A stretch of DNA of 64,000 bases from contig QCKJ01000001.1 of NCBI GenBank assembly GCA_003215435.1, positions 62,001 to 126,000 on the forward strand. Reading direction: 5' to 3'. This DNA is from Prochlorococcus sp. AG-409-M05. GTDB taxonomy: Bacteria; Cyanobacteriota; Cyanobacteriia; PCC-6307; Cyanobiaceae. Below the pieces are notes generated by a model that saw only the letters and a list, made by a program, of their open reading frames with translations, did no database searches and was not told where the DNA came from. This document shows positions 5,917 to 28,967 of this stretch, in pieces (position 1 is the stretch's first letter; the number at the start of each line of letters is the position of its first letter). A program made the translations under genes and the position numbers.

Positions 5917-6041
5917 TTGTTCCTCACACAAAAATTAGAAGAATTCAAGCTACCATTTACTATCTAGATCTACTAGATGGAATAGACAGTATGGAAACTT
6001 GGTTGCAATGGGATAGAGATAAGAAGCTGAGAATATCAAGC

Positions 6042-6169
6042 CATCCACACATTGCAATATCGCTGAGATCCCATGGCACAACAGGAAATCACCTACCAGC
6101 TAATGAACAAGTGCATTTGAGTGAGGGGAAAGCGATTACAAGGAGTTACCCAAATTCATGCCAAACAAG
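6042..6169 (+). repeat. EVE-derived att-like site 4
   Basis: cgctgagatcccatggcaca at 6061 is identical to the sequence at the intact EVE start. The frame reads MAQQEITYQLMNKCI and stops. Left block ccatccacacattgcaatat is shared with sites 12 and 14. The right arm (tttgagtgaggggaaagcgattacaag, then caaattcatgccaaac) is shared with site 2. Confidence 0.8.
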
Positions 6170-6680: not shown

Positions 6681-6880
6681 CCCTATTAATAGAGGGAACC
6701 AAGCTGGTGCCTTGCTGAACAGCTTCTGTTCACACGTTGTTCACATCAAGCAATTCACCCAAACTCCTTGATATGACTGATATTAGCTACTGGCTAATGA
6801 AAAGTTCCTTTTGAGTGATATCAATCGTTCTCAGCGAATGAGGGATTTCTATTCAAACTTTTTTCAAACTAGAGAAATGG
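6681..6880 (+). repeat. EVE-derived att-like site 5
   Basis: atgactgatattagctactggctaatg begins at 6773 (peptide MTDISYWLMKSSF, stop). The left arm has an inverted repeat ccctattaatagaggg at 6681, about 91 bp before the ATG, and gttcac..gttcacatc at 6729. The right arm ends with attcaaacttttttcaaac (6851) and agagaaatgg (6871). Confidence 0.85.
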
Positions 6881-6954
6881 CTGAAATGCCCTTAATGATG
6901 TATCCCTTACTTAAATGCGTTAATAATAGGTATAACAATCTTTCCCATCACTAA
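6877..6954 (+). CDS. Leader ORF encoded by the right arm of site 5
   Basis: ATG 6877 lies in the att right arm and opens a 25-codon frame beginning MAEMPLMMYPLLK. Its stop TAA (6952-6954) directly abuts the ATG of the next gene at 6955. Sites 6 and 9 have equivalent leaders. This arrangement suggests translational coupling of cargo to the att arm rather than a functional peptide. Confidence 0.4.
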   Translation: MAEMPLMMYPLLKCVNNRYNNLSHH

Positions 6955-7170: not shown

Positions 7171-7366
7171 GCTTTATTAATAGAGAAGGGAAGCAGGCTT
7201 GTTTTGGGTTTAAGCACGCTAAAAGACTCATACTTGAGAATATTGCCATCGAGATCTCTTGATATGAACAACATTACTGGCTAATCAAAATAGGCGTTTG
7301 AGTGAGGGTAATCGTTCTCGGGAAATCAGCTATTTCTATCCAAACTTTATCCAAACTAGAGAAATG
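7171..7366 (+). repeat. EVE-derived att-like site 6
   Basis: Core atgaacaacattactggctaat at 7264 is shorter and reads MNNITG then stop. gctttattaatagag at 7171 is the left hairpin-like motif, about 91 bp upstream. The right arm (aggcgtttgagtgagggtaatcg) ends in a clear pair tatccaaactttatccaaac (7336-7355) followed by agagaaatgg. Confidence 0.8.
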
Positions 7367-7396
7367 GTGAAAATGAAAGAACTAGCGGCAGCATGA
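7364..7396 (+). CDS. Leader ORF encoded by the right arm of site 6
   Basis: Ten codons, MVKMKELAAA, starting at the conserved agaaatgg of the att right arm. The stop TGA (7394-7396) overlaps the ATG of the next gene (7393), an ATGA coupling. Probably serves to load ribosomes onto the cargo operon. Confidence 0.4.
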   Translation: MVKMKELAAA

Positions 7397-7575
7397 AAGA
7401 CCTTCCACCTCACTTCTTTCGCGAAAAAGAGAAAGAAGTTGTCTTCCATATTCCTGGTGCATTCCCAACACCGATGGTTGATGAACTAATGCAGGAATAT
7501 TTCCCTGAATACAAGACTGATCTTATTCGCTGTGCTGAAACCTTTTATCGGATGCGTGAGGGTGCAAGGGTATGA
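7393..7575 (+). CDS. 60-aa hypothetical protein, first of a coupled small-gene operon
   Basis: MKDLPPHFFREKEKEVVFHI starts a soluble protein with no signal peptide or transmembrane segment. The ATG overlaps the leader stop and the end overlaps the next start by 4 nt. Unrecognised family. The tightly packed run of six tiny ORFs from here to 8639 looks phage-like or satellite-like in architecture. Confidence 0.55.
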   Translation: MKDLPPHFFREKEKEVVFHIPGAFPTPMVDELMQEYFPEYKTDLIRCAETFYRMREGARV

Positions 7576-7778
7576 CTGTTAATTGGAAAGAATCAGATGG
7601 AGCAGAGTGGAGGGAAGAGTTCAAGCAACTCAAAGGGACTGTCTCTATTGATGACATCAAATTGCTGGATGAAGGAGCAACAACCATGAAAGAGGCATGG
7701 CGACTAGGTGCACTTCATTCTGAATACAAACGACTGAAGAGAAACCAACCACCAGACCTGCCAGATATAAAGCGATGA
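7572..7778 (+). CDS. 68-aa hypothetical protein
   Basis: MTVNWKESDGAEWREEFKQL begins a charged soluble protein containing KEAWRLGALHSEYKRLKRN. Overlaps the preceding gene by ATGA and the following one the same way. The basic helical C-terminal half might bind nucleic acid, but I recognise no family. Confidence 0.5.
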   Translation: MTVNWKESDGAEWREEFKQLKGTVSIDDIKLLDEGATTMKEAWRLGALHSEYKRLKRNQPPDLPDIKR

Positions 7779-7891
7779 ACTATTCCAATGCCCTGTTCAT
7801 ATTTGCTCCCACCATTGGATTAGTGATTTTCTTTGTGGTGATGAATATCGTGATTACAAGGGTCTTCACCAATGACCGAAACAGCAGATGA
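7775..7891 (+). CDS. 38-aa single-span membrane peptide
   Basis: MNYSNALFIFAPTIGLVIFF is almost entirely one hydrophobic span (about 6-28), ending with a polar tail FTNDRNSR. It overlaps both neighbours by ATGA junctions, the main support for translation. A small membrane peptide inside a phage-like operon could be holin-like; that is speculation. Confidence 0.45.
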   Translation: MNYSNALFIFAPTIGLVIFFVVMNIVITRVFTNDRNSR

Positions 7892-8097
7892 TTGATGCCT
7901 ACACCTTTGAGCAATGCAAGAAAGATAAGGAGATTAGACAACTCAAAATCAAGAACTTGGAGCATGCCATCTACCAGTCAGAAGCGATGATCGCTGAATC
8001 GCAAATGGATGGAGATGCCTTGACCTTTTTAAGGAGGAAGGTTGCCGACTCCAGGCAAGATCTAGAAGTGCTTTGTTTAATGAATAATCAGGAGTAA
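7888..8097 (+). CDS. 69-aa helical hypothetical protein
   Basis: MIDAYTFEQCKKDKEIRQLK begins a mostly helical protein with coiled-coil character (IKNLEHAIYQSEAMIAESQ). Stop TAA is directly followed by the next ATG. Unrecognised. Confidence 0.5.
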   Translation: MIDAYTFEQCKKDKEIRQLKIKNLEHAIYQSEAMIAESQMDGDALTFLRRKVADSRQDLEVLCLMNNQE

Positions 8098-8307
8098 ATG
8101 AGACCCTGCTACAAAAGACAAGAGGACTCAATTGACACTGAAGTTTTGACTATGGATTGGGACGCAGCAAGAGCACACTGCAAAGAGAAAAACTGGAAGT
8201 GGACTCTGGACTTGATCGACACGTATCAGAAGGAGATGGAAGAACTAAAAGGCGAGAATGTGAAACTCAAGCGTCAGTTAGTCCTTCGCTCTCAACTGAA
8301 CAAGTAA
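8098..8307 (+). CDS. 69-aa coiled-coil hypothetical protein
   Basis: The C-terminal half (YQKEMEELKGENVKLKRQLV) has a heptad pattern typical of a short coiled coil. ATG 8098 abuts the previous stop; an alternative start at 8152 (MDWDAARAHC) would give a 51-aa protein. The stop overlaps the next start as TAATG. Unrecognised family. Confidence 0.5.
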   Translation: MRPCYKRQEDSIDTEVLTMDWDAARAHCKEKNWKWTLDLIDTYQKEMEELKGENVKLKRQLVLRSQLNK

Positions 8308-8639
8308 TGCCAGTCTTAATAATTGGTTGGAGCGTGTACGACAAACTCCCAGAGGGAGAGCAAAAGGAGTTTGCGTTAGTAGAGCGGTATAGGACTAATT
8401 ATTTCTATGAGTGCTATGAGTATGAAAATGCGAAGGGGAATAAAAATTATGAGTGGAATGATCGATGCTTTAAGAGTCAGGAAGAGTTATTGGACTTCTT
8501 TGGTTATGAAATGATCGAAGACTTAAATGCAGATACCGTGTATGCAAGAAGGATAGAGCCCTTTACTGATGAGGAAGAAAAGAAGTGGATGAAATTAAGC
8601 GACGGTGGCAATCAAGTCAAAGTTATGGGATTCGCCTAA
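8307..8639 (+). CDS. 110-aa hypothetical protein
   Basis: From ATG 8307 the product reads MPVLIIGWSVYDKLPEGEQK and continues as an acidic soluble protein rich in Tyr and Glu (YFYECYEYENAKGNKNYEW). The upstream part of the open frame is out of frame with the coiled-coil gene and is ignored. Last gene of the coupled operon. No family recognised; the acidic, aromatic profile is reminiscent of small phage accessory proteins. Confidence 0.55.
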   Translation: MPVLIIGWSVYDKLPEGEQKEFALVERYRTNYFYECYEYENAKGNKNYEWNDRCFKSQEELLDFFGYEMIEDLNADTVYARRIEPFTDEEEKKWMKLSDGGNQVKVMGFA

Positions 8640-10533: not shown

Positions 10534-10727
10534 CTCTATGAATAGAGAAGAAAACGTAGGTATTTGATGGGTTTGAACGCCAAAAAAAGCCTAAAAACAA
10601 CAACTTTTACCCCCCTAATCCCTTGCTATGGCAGACATCCAGTGGTGGCTAATAAAGAGTTCCCTTTAGGTGATAGCAACCGATCTCAGCGAATCAGGAA
10701 TTTCTATCCAAACTTGCATCAAAGACC
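10534..10727 (+). repeat. EVE-derived att-like site 7
   Basis: atggcagacatccagtggtg at 10628 reads MADIQWWLIKSSL and stops. The left arm has the inverted repeat ctctatgaatagag (10534-10547), 94 bp before the ATG. The stretch 10533-10649 is nearly identical to 15320-15436. The right arm is of the sites 5/9 type (gtgatagcaaccgatctcag) and ends in tatccaaacttgcatcaaa. Confidence 0.85.
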
Positions 10728-10908: not shown

Positions 10909-11214
10909 ATGCGAATATTTCTTCTGCTTTCTTCCTTGTTGATATTGGCTGCTCCCTCTTATGCCGATAGTAATTCCAGAGTAAAAACTTGTATTGCAGC
11001 AATTATTGATAAAAATGCAGATAATGGTAAGTGGGTGAATGCCCGTGCTGTTCGGAGAAATTGTGCTTGCCACGAAGATAGTGTTGCTAATGGATTATTG
11101 AATCCTTATGGTTGTCCAGGTTACAGAGTAGCTATTATTGATTTTAACAAGGGTACTTTTATTGAACAGCACGGTAGTTTAACTGAACAGCAAGTCGATG
11201 AATATTTCGACTAA
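10909..11214 (+). CDS. Small secreted Cys-containing protein
   Basis: 101 aa with signal peptide MRIFLLLSSLLILAAPSYA. The mature part has cysteines in VKTCIAAI, RRNCACHED and YGCPGY. CACH is not a CxxCH haem motif. Unrecognised family; probably periplasmic. The last codons (EYFD, stop) fall inside att-like site 8, so the cargo gene runs directly into the att sequence, and the C-terminus may be partly att-derived. Confidence 0.6.
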   Translation: MRIFLLLSSLLILAAPSYADSNSRVKTCIAAIIDKNADNGKWVNARAVRRNCACHEDSVANGLLNPYGCPGYRVAIIDFNKGTFIEQHGSLTEQQVDEYFD

Positions 11215-11306
11215 AAGTAACAACTGGCTAATGAAAAGAAGTGTTTGAGTGATAGCAAGCGCTTTCAGCGAATCGTCGAGATTTACTCAAACTTTACTCA
11301 AACTCC
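11205..11306 (+). repeat. EVE-derived att-like site 8
   Basis: ttcgactaaaagtaacaact leads into ggctaatgaaaag (11226-11238), aligning with gatatgactaaaattaacta at site 9, but the ATG is lost. The right arm gtttgagtgatagcaagcgc ... atcgtcgagattt is the same type as site 12, ending in actcaaactttactcaaac (11285-11303). Confidence 0.8.
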
Positions 11307-11401
11307 AATTCACTTCAATTAATAGAGGTTTTCATAACCTATCTCTATTGACATTGAAGGAATATCTTTATTCTTGAGAGCAAGAATTAAGCACTTAAAT
11401 A

Positions 11402-12661: not shown

Positions 12662-12689
12662 GTTGATCAGCTAAAACAGAAAAAGAATT

Positions 12690-12842
12690 TACTCAAACTT
12701 TACTCAAACCGCCCATTTTCGCCCAAATCCCTTGATATGACTAAAATTAACTACTGGCTAATGAAAAGTTCCTTTTGAGTGATAGCAAGCGATCTCAGCG
12801 AACCAGGAATTTCTATTCAAACTTTATTCAAACTAGAGAAAT
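12690..12842 (+). repeat. EVE-derived att-like site 9
   Basis: atgactaaaattaactactg at 12737 reads MTKINYWLMKSSF and stops. The left arm has ttactcaaactttactcaaa (12690) plus ccgcccattttcgcc, matching the region before the intact EVE gene. The right arm has attcaaactttattcaaac (12814-12832) and agagaaatgg. One of the best-preserved sites. Confidence 0.9.
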
Positions 12843-12879
12843 GGCAGAAATGAAAGAAGAAAAAATCAGGGATACATAA
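12841..12879 (+). CDS. Leader ORF encoded by the right arm of site 9
   Basis: Twelve codons, MAEMKEEKIRDT, from the conserved agaaatgg of the right arm. The stop is TAATG, overlapping a further mini-ORF (MKMVIVLMF, to 12908). The first cargo gene starts at 12942, so coupling is less direct here than at sites 5 and 6. Confidence 0.35.
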   Translation: MAEMKEEKIRDT

Positions 12880-17604: not shown

Positions 17605-17797
17605 GCGTTATTAATAGAGAAGAAAAGCAGCCCTTTCCCTGGTTCGAACGCTAGAAAAACGGTTATTTTAGCAAAATTTTTCCTCGAAATGGATTGGCAT
17701 GACTGACATTTCCTACTGGCTAATGAAAAGTTATATCCCATTGATACCAAGGGATTAAAAGGAATCCCTAAATCCTGTTCAAACTCTGTTCAAACTT
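17605..17797 (+). repeat. EVE-derived att-like site 11
   Basis: atgactgacatttcctactg at 17699 reads MTDISYWLMKSYIPLIPRD and stops. The left motif cgttattaatagagaag is at 17606, about 92 bp upstream. The right arm (ccattgataccaagggatta) ends in tgttcaaactctgttcaaac (17776-17795). Confidence 0.9.
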
Positions 17798-18648: not shown

Positions 18649-18936
18649 GCCTTCATATTGAACAGTTTTATGGGGAACGTCTATCTCTTTGAGAGCTTGA
18701 CGGATTGCAAACATGCCTCGATTCGCTCCCCCATACCACCCCTGATGCAACATGAGTGAAACATCAAATTAGCAGTCGGACGCAGATAAAACGCCTTCAA
18801 GAAAGGACTACACCGATGTCAGAGTCAGGCTTCCAAACCACATGATTGATAAGATTGAAGAGCTCCGCAAGGAATGGGGGCTACAGTCCAGAAGCTCAGT
18901 ATTAGCAAAGCTTCTTATTAGTAATAGAGATATTTT

Positions 18937-19152
18937 TGTCAGTTGCGATCTGTTTTTATTAGTAATAGAAACTTGATTGAAATAGAATAAAGAAATGAGG
19001 GTGAGAATGTTAAGCCATCCACACATCGCAATATCGCTGAGATCCCATGGCACAACAGGAAATTAACTACTGGCTAATGAAAAGAGGCGTTTGAGTGATA
19101 GCAAGCACTCTCAGCGAATCGTCGAGATTTACTCAAACTTTACTCAAACTCC
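18937..19152 (+). repeat. EVE-derived att-like site 12
   Basis: atggcacaacaggaaattaa at 19047 reads MAQQEINYWLMKRGV and stops. The left arm 18956-19046 (ttattagtaatagaaacttg ... ccatccacacatcgcaatat) is shared with 27600-27702. A tgtcagttgcgatctg block at 18937 recurs at 26585. The right arm is like site 8 and ends in actcaaactttactcaaac (19130-19148). Confidence 0.9.
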
Positions 19153-19243
19153 TATTTACTTAAATCAGGAAAGTCGATTTCAGCTTAATTAATATAAAGG
19201 ATTTAAACAAAATAAAGTTTTTTAACCTATCAAAATAGGCACA

Positions 19244-19705
19244 TTAAAAAGGTAGTTCATCATCATTACTAGTCTTTCCCTCTTCATTTTGATCTCCAAC
19301 TTCTAAATCGTTAAAAATATGTTCAAGAATAGATTTCAGATTACCAATCTCATCTTTATAATCATCCTCGACACTGTCATCCTCTGAACCATTATCAATT
19401 ACATAATCAATTTCTCTAAGCTTTTCCAAACCACCAGTGAGAAGCTTCTGGGTAATAAATTGAATCAGATTAGGATTTTGATTATTTAATGGAAAGACCC
19501 AACAATTCCCATCAGAAGTAGGTAGAAACTCTAATAGACAGCCCATGAGAAGCTGCACATGCTGAATTGGCCAACAAGACTGATAAAGACGACTTATGAG
19601 TATCCCAAAATCTTTATGTTCTAATTGCACAACAAGGTAATTACCGTATTCGTCCTTTGAACGATATAGAATATTTTTAAAATAACCTCTACACATGAAA
19701 CTCAT
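19244..19705 (-). CDS. Putative SSB-like protein with acidic DDELPF tail
   Basis: 153 aa. The C-terminus is an acidic disordered stretch ending NDDELPF, very like the DDDIPF tip by which bacterial single-stranded DNA-binding proteins recruit partners. The N-terminal 90 residues may form a small beta-rich domain, but I cannot confirm an OB fold. The start overlaps the stop of the nuclease gene (TAATG), so the two are co-translated. Likely a DNA-processing partner of that nuclease; the assignment rests mainly on the tail. Confidence 0.5.
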   Translation of the reverse strand: MSFMCRGYFKNILYRSKDEYGNYLVVQLEHKDFGILISRLYQSCWPIQHVQLLMGCLLEFLPTSDGNCWVFPLNNQNPNLIQFITQKLLTGGLEKLREIDYVIDNGSEDDSVEDDYKDEIGNLKSILEHIFNDLEVGDQNEEGKTSNDDELPF

Positions 19706-20403
19706 TATTCCCCTCTCTTATATGGTTTATAGCAATTATTCTTATTAATACAGAACTGGCATTCACTACTTGATGGAGAAAACATATCTAGTTCAATATT
19801 TAGAATCAATTCTAACTTATCCAGGCATTTAGGAATAGTCTTTAAATCAACTAAATCCCTTATTTTTAGATGAGGGTTAATCTTATTAGAAGTAAATTTG
19901 TAAGGCTTTTGATAAATCTCTTCTATTCTGTTGCTAGGCTTAAAATAATTCTTATCTGGTGAGACTAAGTATAAAGCATTTATTTTTTTTGCCTTTTCAG
20001 AATAAAGCATTAACAATGCATAAAGGAAGAGCTGATGCTCATGAAAATTTCGATGTCGTCCAGTTTTAATTTCATATATATCAACAGATCCATCTTGCTT
20101 AGTTGCGGTAATATCTGGTCTTCCAGATAAAATAAAAACACTTCCTTTTACATTAAATCTCACTTTTATGTTTTCATAGTTTTCCCAACTATGAATAAAT
20201 TTGTAATCAGATCTTCTTTCAAGAGCCTTAGCAATTTGAACGACGCAGAAATCATGTTCTGCGACAGGCCTTGAAAACGACCTAGCAGAAGGCGGATATT
20301 TACTGCCATTCAGATATCGATTTAAGAGAGTCATTCGATTTAATCCTTGGTATGGGTTGAAAACTTCAAAAGAGAATTCTTTTTGCGAATTGGGACAAGG
20401 CAT
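19705..20403 (-). CDS. PD-(D/E)XK nuclease, RecB/Cas4-like
   Basis: 232 aa. The RecB-family nuclease signature is complete: H50 (VAEHDF), D97 in SGRPDI, E111-x-K113 in IYEIKTG, and Q124-x3-YA (HQLFLYAL). A Cys cluster C215-x2-C218-x5-C224 near the end suggests the Fe-S cluster of Cas4/AddB-type nucleases. No CRISPR array or cas1/2 is present, so it is not an adaptation nuclease here. With the SSB-like partner it probably processes DNA ends for the mobile element or against invaders (inference). Confidence 0.8.
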   Translation of the reverse strand: MPCPNSQKEFSFEVFNPYQGLNRMTLLNRYLNGSKYPPSARSFSRPVAEHDFCVVQIAKALERRSDYKFIHSWENYENIKVRFNVKGSVFILSGRPDITATKQDGSVDIYEIKTGRHRNFHEHQLFLYALLMLYSEKAKKINALYLVSPDKNYFKPSNRIEEIYQKPYKFTSNKINPHLKIRDLVDLKTIPKCLDKLELILNIELDMFSPSSSECQFCINKNNCYKPYKRGE

Positions 20404-20525
20404 TTCTTATCCCCTGAGATCAACTCAGCAAGCTCTACAACAGTGATATGCCTCACTAGGTTTTTTTTGCGGATGGACTGAGAGATGATTAAACAAAACG
20501 CGACTGAACCACAATATACCACAAA

Positions 20526-20614
20526 ATATTATTCTGTGTAAAATACTAGTACTCTCTCTTCTGGAGCGCCTTTTGGCAGGCACTTTTGAGGATTCCAGAT
20601 ATTATTCTGTGTAA
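20526..20614. repeat. Pair of 16-bp direct repeats in a divergent control region
   Basis: atattattctgtgtaa occurs at 20526-20541 and again at 20599-20614. Both lie upstream of the leftward nuclease operon and of the rightward gene at 20683. The spacing of 73 bp (seven helical turns) suits an operator pair or an iteron-like site. A tactagta palindrome lies between them. Confidence 0.6.
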
Positions 20615-20682: not shown

Positions 20683-21351
20683 ATGACCCCAGGTCTGACA
20701 TGTGCACCGAGCGGCAGAGGGCCTAGTCGATCTACCCAGCTGAGGTGGCTGCGGCCCCACTCCTCGAACTCAAAAAATCAGAAAAATAGAGAAACAGCAA
20801 AAGACGGGTTCGAATATGCAAGCTCGCGGGAACTACCCTGGGAAGAAAGTGCGGTAGATCGAAACCTATCAATCATCAAACGAACCGTTGAACTAGCCCG
20901 ATTAGATGTTTTTAATAGCCTTAGAGAATGCCTTCTTGAAGCTATTGTCCAGCAACTAGATATAGATGGTGAGTTACTTGAAGTTGGCCCAGACGATGAC
21001 TCCTATGACTCCTATTGGCATGGCCATAGTCTTGTAGATGGAATGAAACCGCCTGGACTACTTGAGCAAGAGAATCAATCCCTATCTAGTAATTCATTAA
21101 CAAAAGAAGTTAAAGAGCCAGAAGACAGCTCTTTCAATCCAGTTAATCCAAAGTTAGAGATAAGTATTTCTGGTGGCCATGATTCATTGTTGAATTACTG
21201 GTCTAAGGCTGAGGGTATCGAAACAAAATTACTAGCAGAACAAGTTTTCGCCACCGGCATACGATATGTACTTAGAGAACATCTCATTCCCCAAAATGCT
21301 GTTCGAGAATGGGAAAAAGAACAAGAAGCTGACCCCTCCAAACAAAAATAG
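20683..21351 (+). CDS. Hypothetical acidic protein with unusual N-terminal segment
   Basis: 222 aa from ATG 20683 (an upstream TTG at 20632 is also in frame). Residues about 1-35 are encoded by a GC-rich stretch and read like random sequence (Arg/Ser/Pro rich); the rest is acidic and protein-like (KRTVELARLDVFNSLRECLL, LEISISGGHDSLLNYWSK). The real start may lie further downstream. Unrecognised family. Divergent from the nuclease/SSB-like operon and in the same cassette, so possibly of related function. Confidence 0.45.
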   Translation: MTPGLTCAPSGRGPSRSTQLRWLRPHSSNSKNQKNRETAKDGFEYASSRELPWEESAVDRNLSIIKRTVELARLDVFNSLRECLLEAIVQQLDIDGELLEVGPDDDSYDSYWHGHSLVDGMKPPGLLEQENQSLSSNSLTKEVKEPEDSSFNPVNPKLEISISGGHDSLLNYWSKAEGIETKLLAEQVFATGIRYVLREHLIPQNAVREWEKEQEADPSKQK

Positions 21352-21378: not shown

Positions 21379-21527
21379 TTACCCAAACTTTACTCAAACC
21401 GCCCTTTTTCGCCCAAATCCCTTGATATGACTGACATTTCCTACTGGCTAATGAAGTGCGTTAGATGAGTGTATAACTGGCTTCTGAGCGATTAACCTGA
21501 TTCCATTCGAACTTCATTCGAACTTTC
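21379..21527 (+). repeat. EVE-derived att-like site 13, adjacent to the integrase
   Basis: atgactgacatttcctactg at 21427 reads MTDISYWLMKCVR and stops. The left arm is ttacccaaactttactcaaa at 21379. The right arm is unlike all others (gtgcgttagatgagtgtata) and ends in attcgaacttcattcgaac (21504-21522), only 33 bp before the integrase start codon. It is the best candidate for the attachment site of that integrase. Confidence 0.9.
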
Positions 21528-21559: not shown

Positions 21560-23113
21560 ATGCCAGCGATTTTAGAGAAAAGAAAAGTCTTAAATGGTAG
21601 GGGCATTGTCGGTATTTGGGCCAATGGAACGAGTGCTGGCAAATACTTTTATCGAGAGAAAGTAGAAGGCAGGAAAGCCTATCGATTTAAAGAACTCCCT
21701 GATGCCAAGAATCTGGATGAGGCTGAATCGTTAGCCGCTGATGCAGCCATCGAATTAAGAGATGAACTCAAGGATGCAGAACGAATCGTCGAGACCTATG
21801 ACCCGATGAATTTGGTTCAAAGGGAAGAGAAACTGCTCAAGAAAAAAGAAAAGCTTGCACGAGAACAGCAGAAGAAAGAGAACCCAAAGATCTCGATTGA
21901 GAAAGCGATGGATCAATGGTTAGTTGAACAGCAGAGAAGAGTCGATGCTGGGACGTTCTCTCAGAACAGTTATGAGCACAAGTTGAATTGCTCGAAGCAC
22001 ATCATGGACTTCCTCAAGAAAAGGAAAGTCCTTCTCACAAGCCAAATCACCAACACGACTTTTGATCAATACCCTGAGTTCAGGATGCGGCAAACACAAA
22101 GACGCATCGTGATTCATCGAGAGCTTGCAGTCTTAGGGGAATTTATCAAGAGCTATCTGGTCAAGCACAAATACATTCCTGCTCACCTCTGGCTGGATGG
22201 TCAGTTCTTACCAAGAATCAAAGTTAGGGATACCGATCGAGACGCTAACCCTGCCATCAATCCAGAGGATTGGACAACGATTATTAATTACATCCGAGAA
22301 GAATGGAGGCCATTGGCATATGAGAAAGATCAGTTCGGTAGACGTTCCGAAAAGTCCATCTATTTCCGCAACATGTTCTGGCATTGGTTACTCATCGCCA
22401 AGAGCACAGGGATGTCCCCCGAGGAGATCTGCAAGATGAAATGGAAGAGTGTTGAGATTATTGATGTCGGAAGAATCAGTAAATCAAAAGCGATAGAGGA
22501 GTATGAACAGATCCTCGATGAGATCAAAGAAGAAGGGAAAGAAGATGAGATCTATATCGAACCTCCAGACTTAGACGTAAACCCATCTGATTGGGTTCTC
22601 AATCACGATGCTTGGGGACGAGAAGAAAGGCTCATTTCATTTATCACTACTGTTAGAGCCAAGACTTCCAGAGTCAGAGAGATCCCTTGCAACCTTGGTT
22701 ATGTCTTTAGAAGGTGGAAATACTTTCTAGAGAATGAGATGAACCATGTAGTTAGAGGTGATGACTTTGTCTTTGCTCAGATCCATAACGAGATGAAGCA
22801 ACCCAATCAAAGAAAGATTCAACAGCATTGGAGATGGACGGTTGATCAGTTGATGGATGAAGGAAAGCTCAAAGGTCACAAGTTCTCTGATCGTCCCTAT
22901 ACCCTCTATTCACTGCGTTCTACTTTCATTGAAAATCACTTAATGAAAGGGACAGATATCTTCCTGTTAGCTCGTATTTGTGGCAACAGCGTCAAGACAA
23001 TCATGGACACCTACGAAAGAATAGACATAAGGAAAAGAACAAAGGAGATCACGGATATTGAGTACGGCAAGAAAACAAGCAATGCAGCAGTGGTTCAGTT
23101 ATACGCCGATTAG
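21560..23113 (+). CDS. Tyrosine recombinase (integrase)
   Basis: 517 aa. The N-terminal beta-rich arm-binding segment is about 10-45, a charged coiled linker about 85-108, core-binding helices about 110-215, and the catalytic domain about 230-490. Catalytic-box residues: LLIAKSTGMSPEEICKMKW, where Ser286 sits at the usual Arg I position; Lys368 in RAKTSRVREIP; Y450-S-L-R453 in place of HxxR; N476 in CGNS in place of GH; nucleophile Tyr485 (MDTYERID), correctly nine residues after N476. A 60-residue insertion separates boxes I and K. It directly follows att-like site 13 and is the only complete recombinase in the window, so it is the likely engine of the array. The altered active site needs an alignment to judge. 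Confidence 0.9.
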   Translation: MPAILEKRKVLNGRGIVGIWANGTSAGKYFYREKVEGRKAYRFKELPDAKNLDEAESLAADAAIELRDELKDAERIVETYDPMNLVQREEKLLKKKEKLAREQQKKENPKISIEKAMDQWLVEQQRRVDAGTFSQNSYEHKLNCSKHIMDFLKKRKVLLTSQITNTTFDQYPEFRMRQTQRRIVIHRELAVLGEFIKSYLVKHKYIPAHLWLDGQFLPRIKVRDTDRDANPAINPEDWTTIINYIREEWRPLAYEKDQFGRRSEKSIYFRNMFWHWLLIAKSTGMSPEEICKMKWKSVEIIDVGRISKSKAIEEYEQILDEIKEEGKEDEIYIEPPDLDVNPSDWVLNHDAWGREERLISFITTVRAKTSRVREIPCNLGYVFRRWKYFLENEMNHVVRGDDFVFAQIHNEMKQPNQRKIQQHWRWTVDQLMDEGKLKGHKFSDRPYTLYSLRSTFIENHLMKGTDIFLLARICGNSVKTIMDTYERIDIRKRTKEITDIEYGKKTSNAAVVQLYAD

Positions 23114-26227: not shown

Positions 26228-26703
26228 GTAATTAAGAGGCTCCTAAATTAATAAAAAATTTTGCACAAATATCTGAGCTCATATAACGATATAGACAGGA
26301 CAGATAAGCCCCATACGCCCCTCTAGAAAGTCACCATGAAGGATGAATGATTGATTCATCGAACTGATTTCTAAAGTCTTGGAATCGATTCGCAACGTCG
26401 GAGAGAAAGAAACCTTGAATACTCCCAAGAGAAACACGCACCACCTTGGTATGGCTCCATCAATGAGCGATGTGTGGATAGGTTTTGAAAATGGTGTGGA
26501 TAGAAAAAATTGGAATAACTCAGATCTGTTGCCGTTACTCAATTTCTCAACAGAGGGTTCTTATTAGGAATTGAGGAGTTTTACTGTCAGTTGCGATCTG
26601 TTTTATCTATTAGGTGGTCTAACAATTATTTCTCTGATCTTTTGAAACTGCTTTTTCCAAAAGCTAATAACAGAATCAGGGATCGGTTTATTGATAGGCA
26701 TGT
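26228..26703. other. Gene-poor stretch with a left-arm remnant
   Basis: No gene I would support. Positions 26584-26604 (ctgtcagttgcgatctgttt) copy the block at 18937 that precedes att-like site 12, without an EVE core after it. This looks like the leftover of a lost or rearranged site. Confidence 0.5.
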
Positions 26704-27599: not shown

Positions 27600-27770
27600 G
27601 TTATTAGTAATAGAAACTTGATTGAAATAGAATAGAAATACGAGGGCGAGAATGTTAAGCCATCCACACACCATCCACACACCGCAATATCGCTGAGATC
27701 CCATGGCACAACAGGAAATTAACTACTGGCTAATGGAAAGCGAGCCTGACGTTTACGCCTCAAAAAGATA
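27600..27770 (+). repeat. EVE-derived att-like site 14
   Basis: atggcacaacaggaaattaa at 27703 reads MAQQEINYWLMESEPDVYAS then KR and stop. It keeps EVE sequence seven codons past the core before diverging. The left arm duplicates that of site 12. The ccatccacaca motif is itself doubled (27660-27682). The segment gtcataccaatggatc (27773 region) recalls the right arms of sites 3, 10 and 11. Confidence 0.85.
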
Positions 27771-28445: not shown

Positions 28446-28528
28446 GTTTACCCAAACTTTACCCAAACCGCCCATTTTCGCTGAGATCCCATGGCACAAC
28501 AGGAACCTAACTACTGGCTAATGAAAAG
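28446..28528 (+). repeat. Intact EVE start region, att-like site 15 (right border)
   Basis: ttacccaaactttacccaaa (28448-28467) followed by ccgcccattttcgc and gagatcccatggcac. The core tactggctaatgaaaag (28512-28528) here continues into an uninterrupted reading frame. It is the functional member of the family and the probable present-day target or border. Confidence 0.85.
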
Positions 28529-28967
28529 CGAGCCAGATGTTTATGGAATCAATAAGCTCAAAGACGAAGGTAAAACACTTTGGGATGGCATTAGAAATTA
28601 CCAAGCACGTAACTTCATGCGATCCATGCAAATTGGCGACCGTGCATTCTTTTACCACTCGAACTGCAAGCCTCCTGGGATAGTAGGCCTAATGGAGGTT
28701 ATAAATACACACTTAACAGACCCAACCCAGTTTGACGTTAAAAGCAAATACTACGATCCAAAATCTACTGTTGAGAAGCCAAGGTGGGACTGCGTTGAGC
28801 TTCAATACATAGGTCAATTCTTCTCAATGATTACACTGGAGAAACTGCGTTCAATCTATTCTGCAGAGGAGTTACCTCTAGTAAGGAAAGGCAACCGACT
28901 TTCAATTATTCCAGTTCCTAAAACAACAGCCAATCAACTTCTCATAATGGCTGGAGATCTAAAATAA
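28491..28967 (+). CDS. EVE-domain protein
   Basis: 158 aa spanning one EVE domain, a PUA-like fold. The hallmark NYWLMKSEPDVYGI opens it, followed by LWDGIRNYQARNFMRSM and DRAFFYHSNCKPPGIVG, all typical of the THYN1/YgiF-like EVE family that binds modified bases such as 5-methylcytosine derivatives. Known relatives are linked to DNA/RNA modification sensing and defence. The gene forms the right border of the island, and its promoter and first codons carry the repeat copied 14 times upstream, so its expression signals have probably been replaced by integration events (inference). Confidence 0.9.
   Translation: MAQQEPNYWLMKSEPDVYGINKLKDEGKTLWDGIRNYQARNFMRSMQIGDRAFFYHSNCKPPGIVGLMEVINTHLTDPTQFDVKSKYYDPKSTVEKPRWDCVELQYIGQFFSMITLEKLRSIYSAEELPLVRKGNRLSIIPVPKTTANQLLIMAGDLK

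Follow-up and report, generated by a model that had tools for sequence, protein, structure and literature searches.

A probably acquired two-gene cassette of a Cas4-like nuclease and an SSB-tipped partner in Prochlorococcus sp. AG-409-M05

Gene organization and sequence features of the pair

Within the window, that is, the whole 64,000-nucleotide stretch of Prochlorococcus sp. AG-409-M05 DNA analyzed here, two adjoining open reading frames on the minus strand encode a nuclease and a small second protein, hereafter the partner. Both ORFs, as well as a divergent ORF, two direct repeats and the surrounding dispersed repeats, are listed in Table 1. The two ORFs lie where the initial annotation had placed them, and the junction between them, which reads AAGAGAGGGGAATAATGAGT, contains the TAATG overlap that it had described: the stop codon TAA and the start codon ATG have one A in common, and the sequence GAGGGG is present just upstream of the partner start. 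The overlap is consistent with translational coupling, and co-translation of the pair fits the sequence. The GC content of the pair is 32–33.5%, compared with 41–43% for most of the window, and since the genes are so A+T-rich (33% GC vs. 41–43% around them), the pair was probably acquired from elsewhere. What this ocean picocyanobacterium carries is a two-gene cassette, probably of foreign origin.

Table 1 Coordinates of the cassette, its control region and the repeats of the island within the window
Feature	Position	Strand	Basis or remark
Nuclease ORF, 232 aa	20403..19705	minus	ORF call, PF12705 match and catalytic residues
Partner ORF, 153 aa	19705..19244	minus	ORF call
TAATG stop/start overlap, with GAGGGG upstream	19703..19707	minus	sequence reading
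SSB-tip-like C-terminus NDDELPF of the partner	19247..19267	minus	comparison with host SSB, pattern and shuffle tests
Sigma-70-like promoter candidate for the pair, TTTACA-18-TATATT	20513..20542	minus	matches no commoner here than in shuffles
Direct repeat ATATTATTCTGTGTAA, 16 bp exact, first copy	20526..20541	plus	overlaps candidate -35
16-bp direct repeat, second copy	20599..20614	plus	exact match
Divergent ORF, 222 aa	ATG 20683 (or TTG 20632) to 21351	plus	same repeat-bounded cassette
Dispersed island repeat, cassette boundary on one side	18911..19165	plus	repeat comparison
Dispersed island repeat, cassette boundary on the other side	21379..21455	plus	repeat comparison
Dispersed repeats separating island cassettes	5988-6154, 6754-6888, 7275-7381, 10613-10715, 11209-11322, 12687-12863	plus	window 5988-28528
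Dispersed repeats, continued	17699-17797, 18911-19165, 21379-21455, 26428-26613, 27601-27740, 28478-28528	plus	window 5988-28528

Judged by its sequence, the 232-aa protein is a Cas4/RecB-type PD-(D/E)XK nuclease. It matches PF12705 in Pfam (E=3.1e-7, 31 bits, curated cutoff 22), and every residue of the H-D-ExK-QxxxYA set and of the three-Cys cluster noted earlier was found at its place: the catalytic set is complete (H50, D97, E111xK113 and Q124xxxY128A129), and the C-terminal cysteines C215, C218 and C224 are present. Although identity to relatives is only about 25%, these catalytic residues have been retained. The match to the family exceeds chance, and in PADLOC the best, though remote, match was Cas4 (E=2e-6), accompanied by weak matches to several Cas4-like models. 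With 24.7 bits, the protein falls below the cutoff of 65 of the CRISPR Cas4 equivalog TIGR00372, and it is therefore Cas4-like rather than a CRISPR Cas4. No CRISPR-like array is present within the window, where only a single 2-copy tandem repeat was found, in agreement with the earlier remark that none lies near the pair. A nuclease profile built from four members matched PD-(D/E)XK proteins among the solved structures, with the cyanobacterial-type chains 9iac and 9iab as top matches, followed by Cas4 and Dna2. The structure model of the nuclease itself (pLDDT 32) was unusable. An upstream Cys shared by the other three members has no aligned counterpart in the window nuclease, which has C3 and C53 instead, so that an iron-sulfur cluster of the four-Cys Cas4/AddB type is uncertain in this protein.

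The partner gave no matches in Pfam, NCBIfam, PHROGs or PADLOC. Its C-terminus was described as the SSB partner-binding tip, and it does carry an acidic tip closing in [IL]PF: the partner ends in NDDELPF, the true SSB of the same genome in PDTDEIPF (tip DTDEIPF), the SSB of a relative in PDTDDIPF, and the tip of E. coli SSB is DFDDDIPF (PMC10164576). When 597 ORFs of 100 aa or more from the compared loci were tested, the partner was the sole fit to a strict acidic-[ILMV]PF tail pattern, and a looser pattern applied to 207 ORF ends gave one other match, a genuine SSB (PEVDEIPF). None of 119,400 shuffled tails fitted the pattern, and shuffles of the partner's own composition did so at a rate of about 3e-5. 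The SSB-type tail of the partner is not due to chance. The exact tip is lacking in the partner's relatives; several of them have an acidic C-terminal stretch, and the last residue is F in one and L in another. Because the other members do not keep the tip, SSB mimicry is a trait of the window member and not a mark of the family.

As to its fold, we take the partner to be a small and probably OB-like protein. Residues 5–72 are predicted to be mostly beta, followed by helices, and the order of the predicted strands (5–18, 21–30, 34–41, 56–62 and 67–72, then helix) is compatible with an OB barrel. For the proposed check of an OB fold in the 153-aa protein, the structure model was too poor to argue for or against such a barrel: the AlphaFold2 model, made from 3 sequences, reached a pLDDT of 48, and Foldseek with this model returned no significant match. 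Comparison of the partner with cyanobacterial SSBs by hhalign detected no similarity (E 0.26), in a weak test with a small and badly aligned SSB set in which one row was blank. Matches of the partner family to PDB profiles (Pumilio, ubiquitin-like domains) were weak and were judged to be chance.

Recurrence of the pairing and the wider partner family

About 400 genomes of the host's family were searched with each of the two proteins, and few matches were obtained. Nuclease homologues were confirmed at four loci (the window, G108, G218 and G399), each with a partner-family gene in the same module. In G108 (Prochlorococcus AG-363-C20) the nuclease gene is followed by the partner gene, the G218 module comprises a 182-aa protein, the nuclease, the partner and a further small protein, and in G399 the nuclease stands between a 182-aa protein and a small protein. 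When the two 182-aa proteins, from G218 and G399, were compared with the partner family by hhalign, E was 2.7e-4 with 3 sequences and, with 11, 2.1e-5, where a reversed and an unrelated control gave 0.4–0.7; they belong to the partner family, and therefore a partner-family gene is present at all four nuclease loci. The pairing, whose recurrence in other genomes had been put forward as a check, is real and recurrent, and it joins a known kind of nuclease to a partner family that is nameless in the libraries searched. The description of the pair as a compact module not tied to known systems also holds, as its components matched no single PADLOC system: no named anti-phage system was obtained there from the weak Cas4-like matches of the nuclease, and the partner had none. 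No known defence genes were recognized beside the pair.

The partner also occurs next to other enzymes. In G072 (Prochlorococcus sp. AG-363-P19) it lies directly before a 1146-aa TM0106-type RecB nuclease/helicase fusion, and in G345 directly after RmuC. In G371 it is located at a contig edge with no nuclease visible, and in G260 only a remnant of it is left. Two further matches were set aside as spurious, one inside an 821-aa phenylalanyl-tRNA-synthetase-like gene (G396) and one in a housekeeping-gene region (G335).

The remaining genes of the modules are less uniform. The small third genes have no detectable shared homology; the small gene after the G108 partner (L012 5402-5710) gave a match to NblA (phycobilisome degradation) that slightly exceeds the Pfam cutoff; this match is weak and perhaps incidental, NblA being an unusual companion for a nuclease module. 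As to the divergent gene at 20683, which was said to share the control region with the pair, the ORF exists, but it has no counterpart in other modules and was dropped as a conserved module component. The divergent genes of the modules do not all belong together, a match being obtained only between the G218 and G399 genes, and structural searches with the divergent proteins gave no matches. The 16-bp direct repeat in the shared region is present in two copies against 0.05 expected, with none elsewhere in the window, and may be an operator. Among five other modules examined, no repeat of this type was found in four and a short imperfect one in the fifth. That the 20683 gene regulates the pair is a guess, for which the 16-bp repeat is the only ground.

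The SSB-tailed subfamily was represented in 291 genomes across the class by the window's own copy only. No relatives were found by tblastn in 50,697 phage records (three queries) or in plasmids (one query), nor when viral contigs were scanned for patterns taken from two alignments and from three single proteins. Of two scans of genome contigs, the first was empty and the second returned only two loci already known. Within the sensitivity of these searches, the module is chromosomal or element-borne, not phage-borne.

With a profile of the 182-aa subfamily, 12 more matches were obtained, spread over 11 members of the host's family whose genomes measure 2.5–4.1 Mb. In six loci (five genomes), the partner homologue is convergent with a Rad52 gene at a distance of about 80 bp to 1.1 kb; Rad52 was confirmed by Pfam in three of the six (E ~1e-41) and judged in the others from matching protein ends only. 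Sipho_Gp157 adjoins Rad52 in two loci, as assigned by Pfam. Rad52 and the partner homologue are linked and convergent, not co-transcribed, and this linkage speaks for a function in handling ssDNA or in recombination, more weakly than the operon evidence does. At the remaining larger-genome loci, no convincing DNA enzyme was found in an operon with the partner homologue. An SNase homologue near the larger-genome homologues at several loci (Pfam-tested in L060) is convergent and probably secreted, and was not counted. The chromosomal pair of Rad52 and Sipho_Gp157, a set of SSB-annealing type, is located at L062 6168-8075 and L067 3347-4874, beside partner-family homologues.

Repeat island and mobile surroundings

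Two copies of the dispersed island repeats enclose the pair together with the divergent ORF, and a tyrosine recombinase at 21560 is located just outside. The dispersed repeats of the island are direct, on the same strand and about 20–250 bp long, and one of them has 15 matches in the genome, all on one contig, from 6 to 91 kb. The same repeats are found in Prochlorococcus AG-363-P19 (L013/L025) around different cassettes, and copies there also flank its own partner-family cassette. The two islands are otherwise unlike, except for a 956-bp stretch with 96% DNA identity (window 7356-8311 vs. L013 3054-4009), which suggests a recent exchange. The divergent tyrosine recombinase of the window (517 aa, 21560-23113) matches the integrase family PHROG 1 at E 1e-13 and PF00589 below its cutoff, and some of its catalytic positions look altered by eye. 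An EVE-domain protein (PF01878, E 5e-53) is encoded at 28491-28967, at the edge of the repeat island.

At two other loci, the module is associated with tRNA genes. The G218 module lies inside an 8.4-kb integrative element (L011 4222-12779) of about a dozen genes. The two tRNA-Thr(GGT) genes that bound this element match each other along 72 bases, and the first of them is immediately followed by a tyrosine recombinase. The G399 module abuts a tRNA-Thr at one end and is flanked by an integrase at the other; a copy of the tRNA 3' end, 40 nt long, is present about 19 kb away. A SIMPL-like protein in the G218 element has 63% identity to one beside the G399 module, compared with 24–32% for the module genes. 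Just outside the G218 element, there is a stretch of 327 bp (L011 14351-14677) with 93% identity, on the opposite strand, to window 8302-8628. Neither the window nor the 32 kb to its left contains a tRNA, and Rfam gave no match in the window. A tycheposon architecture has been described for Prochlorococcus (cited second-hand from PMC10872708). The G218 element resembles it in having tRNA-Thr, tyrosine recombinase, cargo and a second tRNA-Thr copy, whereas the window cassette differs from it in having no tRNA near it and dispersed repeats as its bounds.

Comparison with known systems and proposed role

Roles in defence or repair have already been proposed for solo-Cas4 (Hudaiberdiev et al. 2017, PMC5704561). 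Like solo-Cas4 and MGE-Cas4, the module has a Cas4-like PD-(D/E)XK nuclease in which cysteines are clustered at the C-terminus, and it apparently lies outside CRISPR loci, in small-genome hosts or mobile elements; unlike them, the window nuclease is below the Cas4 equivalog cutoff and is assigned by Pfam to PF12705, which is treated only briefly in that paper. A search of its text gave no mention of SSB or OB fold. Since phage SSBs stimulate several nuclease defences (Hachiman, Nhi, Retron-Eco8, AbpAB and Hna; PMC13381803), control of a nuclease via single-strand binding is a known theme, and the window pair may share with these five systems a DNA nuclease whose control involves single-strand-binding proteins. 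Hna and Hachiman, however, have their own helicase/ATPase parts and sense phage SSB, whereas the window pair encodes a separate small SSB-tipped partner beside a helicase-free nuclease. Cas4-like nucleases outside CRISPR are common, with jobs that are largely unknown, and a dedicated SSB-tipped partner suggests a testable way of aiming such a nuclease. Moreover, one small nameless protein family travels with several unrelated DNA enzymes. If its role is defence, the module would represent an unrecognized layer of resistance to phages or elements in Prochlorococcus and its relatives.

We propose, at roughly even confidence, that the pair is a horizontally acquired, mobile DNA-end-processing module consisting of an adaptor and an exchangeable nuclease. 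The nuclease and the partner would be made together, with the partner acting as a small, probably OB-like adaptor that binds either ssDNA or the usual protein ligands of SSB. By means of its SSB-type tip, the partner would attach to SSB-tip-binding proteins or bring the complex to DNA that is exposed and coated with SSB, and the Cas4/AddB-type nuclease, the catalytic set of which is intact, would then resect or degrade the SSB-coated or exposed DNA. On the sequence level, an adaptor-nuclease module is supported by the gene structure, the intact residues, the likeness of the tip to that of the host SSB, the recurrent pairing, the unity of the partner family and the mobile context. That the module protects against phages or other elements has close to an even chance, and this use is somewhat more likely than the main alternative, recombination or repair, because varied nucleases stand beside one partner family, the distribution is patchy, the divergence is strong, and the carriers are islands or a tRNA-anchored element. 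It is a bolder and rather unlikely extension that these are an undescribed family of mobile picocyanobacterial defence modules, with a single dedicated adaptor family that mimics SSB in some of its members and directs one of several interchangeable nucleases (Cas4-like, RmuC, RecB-helicase) to invader DNA that is exposed or SSB-coated. Against the proposed module, neither protein has a confident structure, the partner has no detectable sequence similarity to SSB, relatives do not preserve the exact tip, and no known defence gene was recognized beside the pair. In its larger-genome branch, the partner family is linked to Rad52 and not to defence, several loci of that branch are without a convincing adjoining DNA enzyme, and the G371 partner at its contig edge has no visible nuclease.

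The pair could also serve recombination, either for a mobile element or for the host itself; the nuclease would resect ends and the partner would protect the ssDNA or hand it over for annealing, as in phage exonuclease-plus-annealase or exonuclease-plus-SSB sets. We regard this as a possible, minority explanation. The plan of the pair resembles such sets: in those of lambda Red type, too, an exonuclease gene adjoins a gene for ssDNA handling, and the wider partner family shows linkage to Rad52 and Gp157 (convergent with Rad52 in the six loci, three of them Pfam-confirmed, with Sipho_Gp157 next to Rad52 in two). In addition, the G218 module lies in an integrative element with its own recombinase, and the window cassette lies among repeats that could recombine. 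Nevertheless, no annealase or recombinase of RecT/Rad52 kind was found beside any of the four nuclease modules, the nuclease is Cas4-like, the Rad52 genes do not form one operon with the partner homologue, and the phage and viral-contig searches, at the sensitivity applied, returned no relatives. It is improbable that a toxin-like or self-limiting nuclease is masked by the partner and freed on contact with foreign or SSB-coated DNA; the tight coupling to a small acidic-tailed protein and the possible operator repeat over the promoter would agree with such masking, but the nuclease gene comes before the partner gene in the window and in G108, and members of the partner family are also found with other types of enzyme and with Rad52. 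Very improbable is a decaying passenger without present function; the partner remnant in G260 and the window integrase with its PF00589 match below cutoff might suggest one, but in the window neither frame is broken, the overlap persists, and the catalytic residues have been retained despite an identity to relatives of about 25%.
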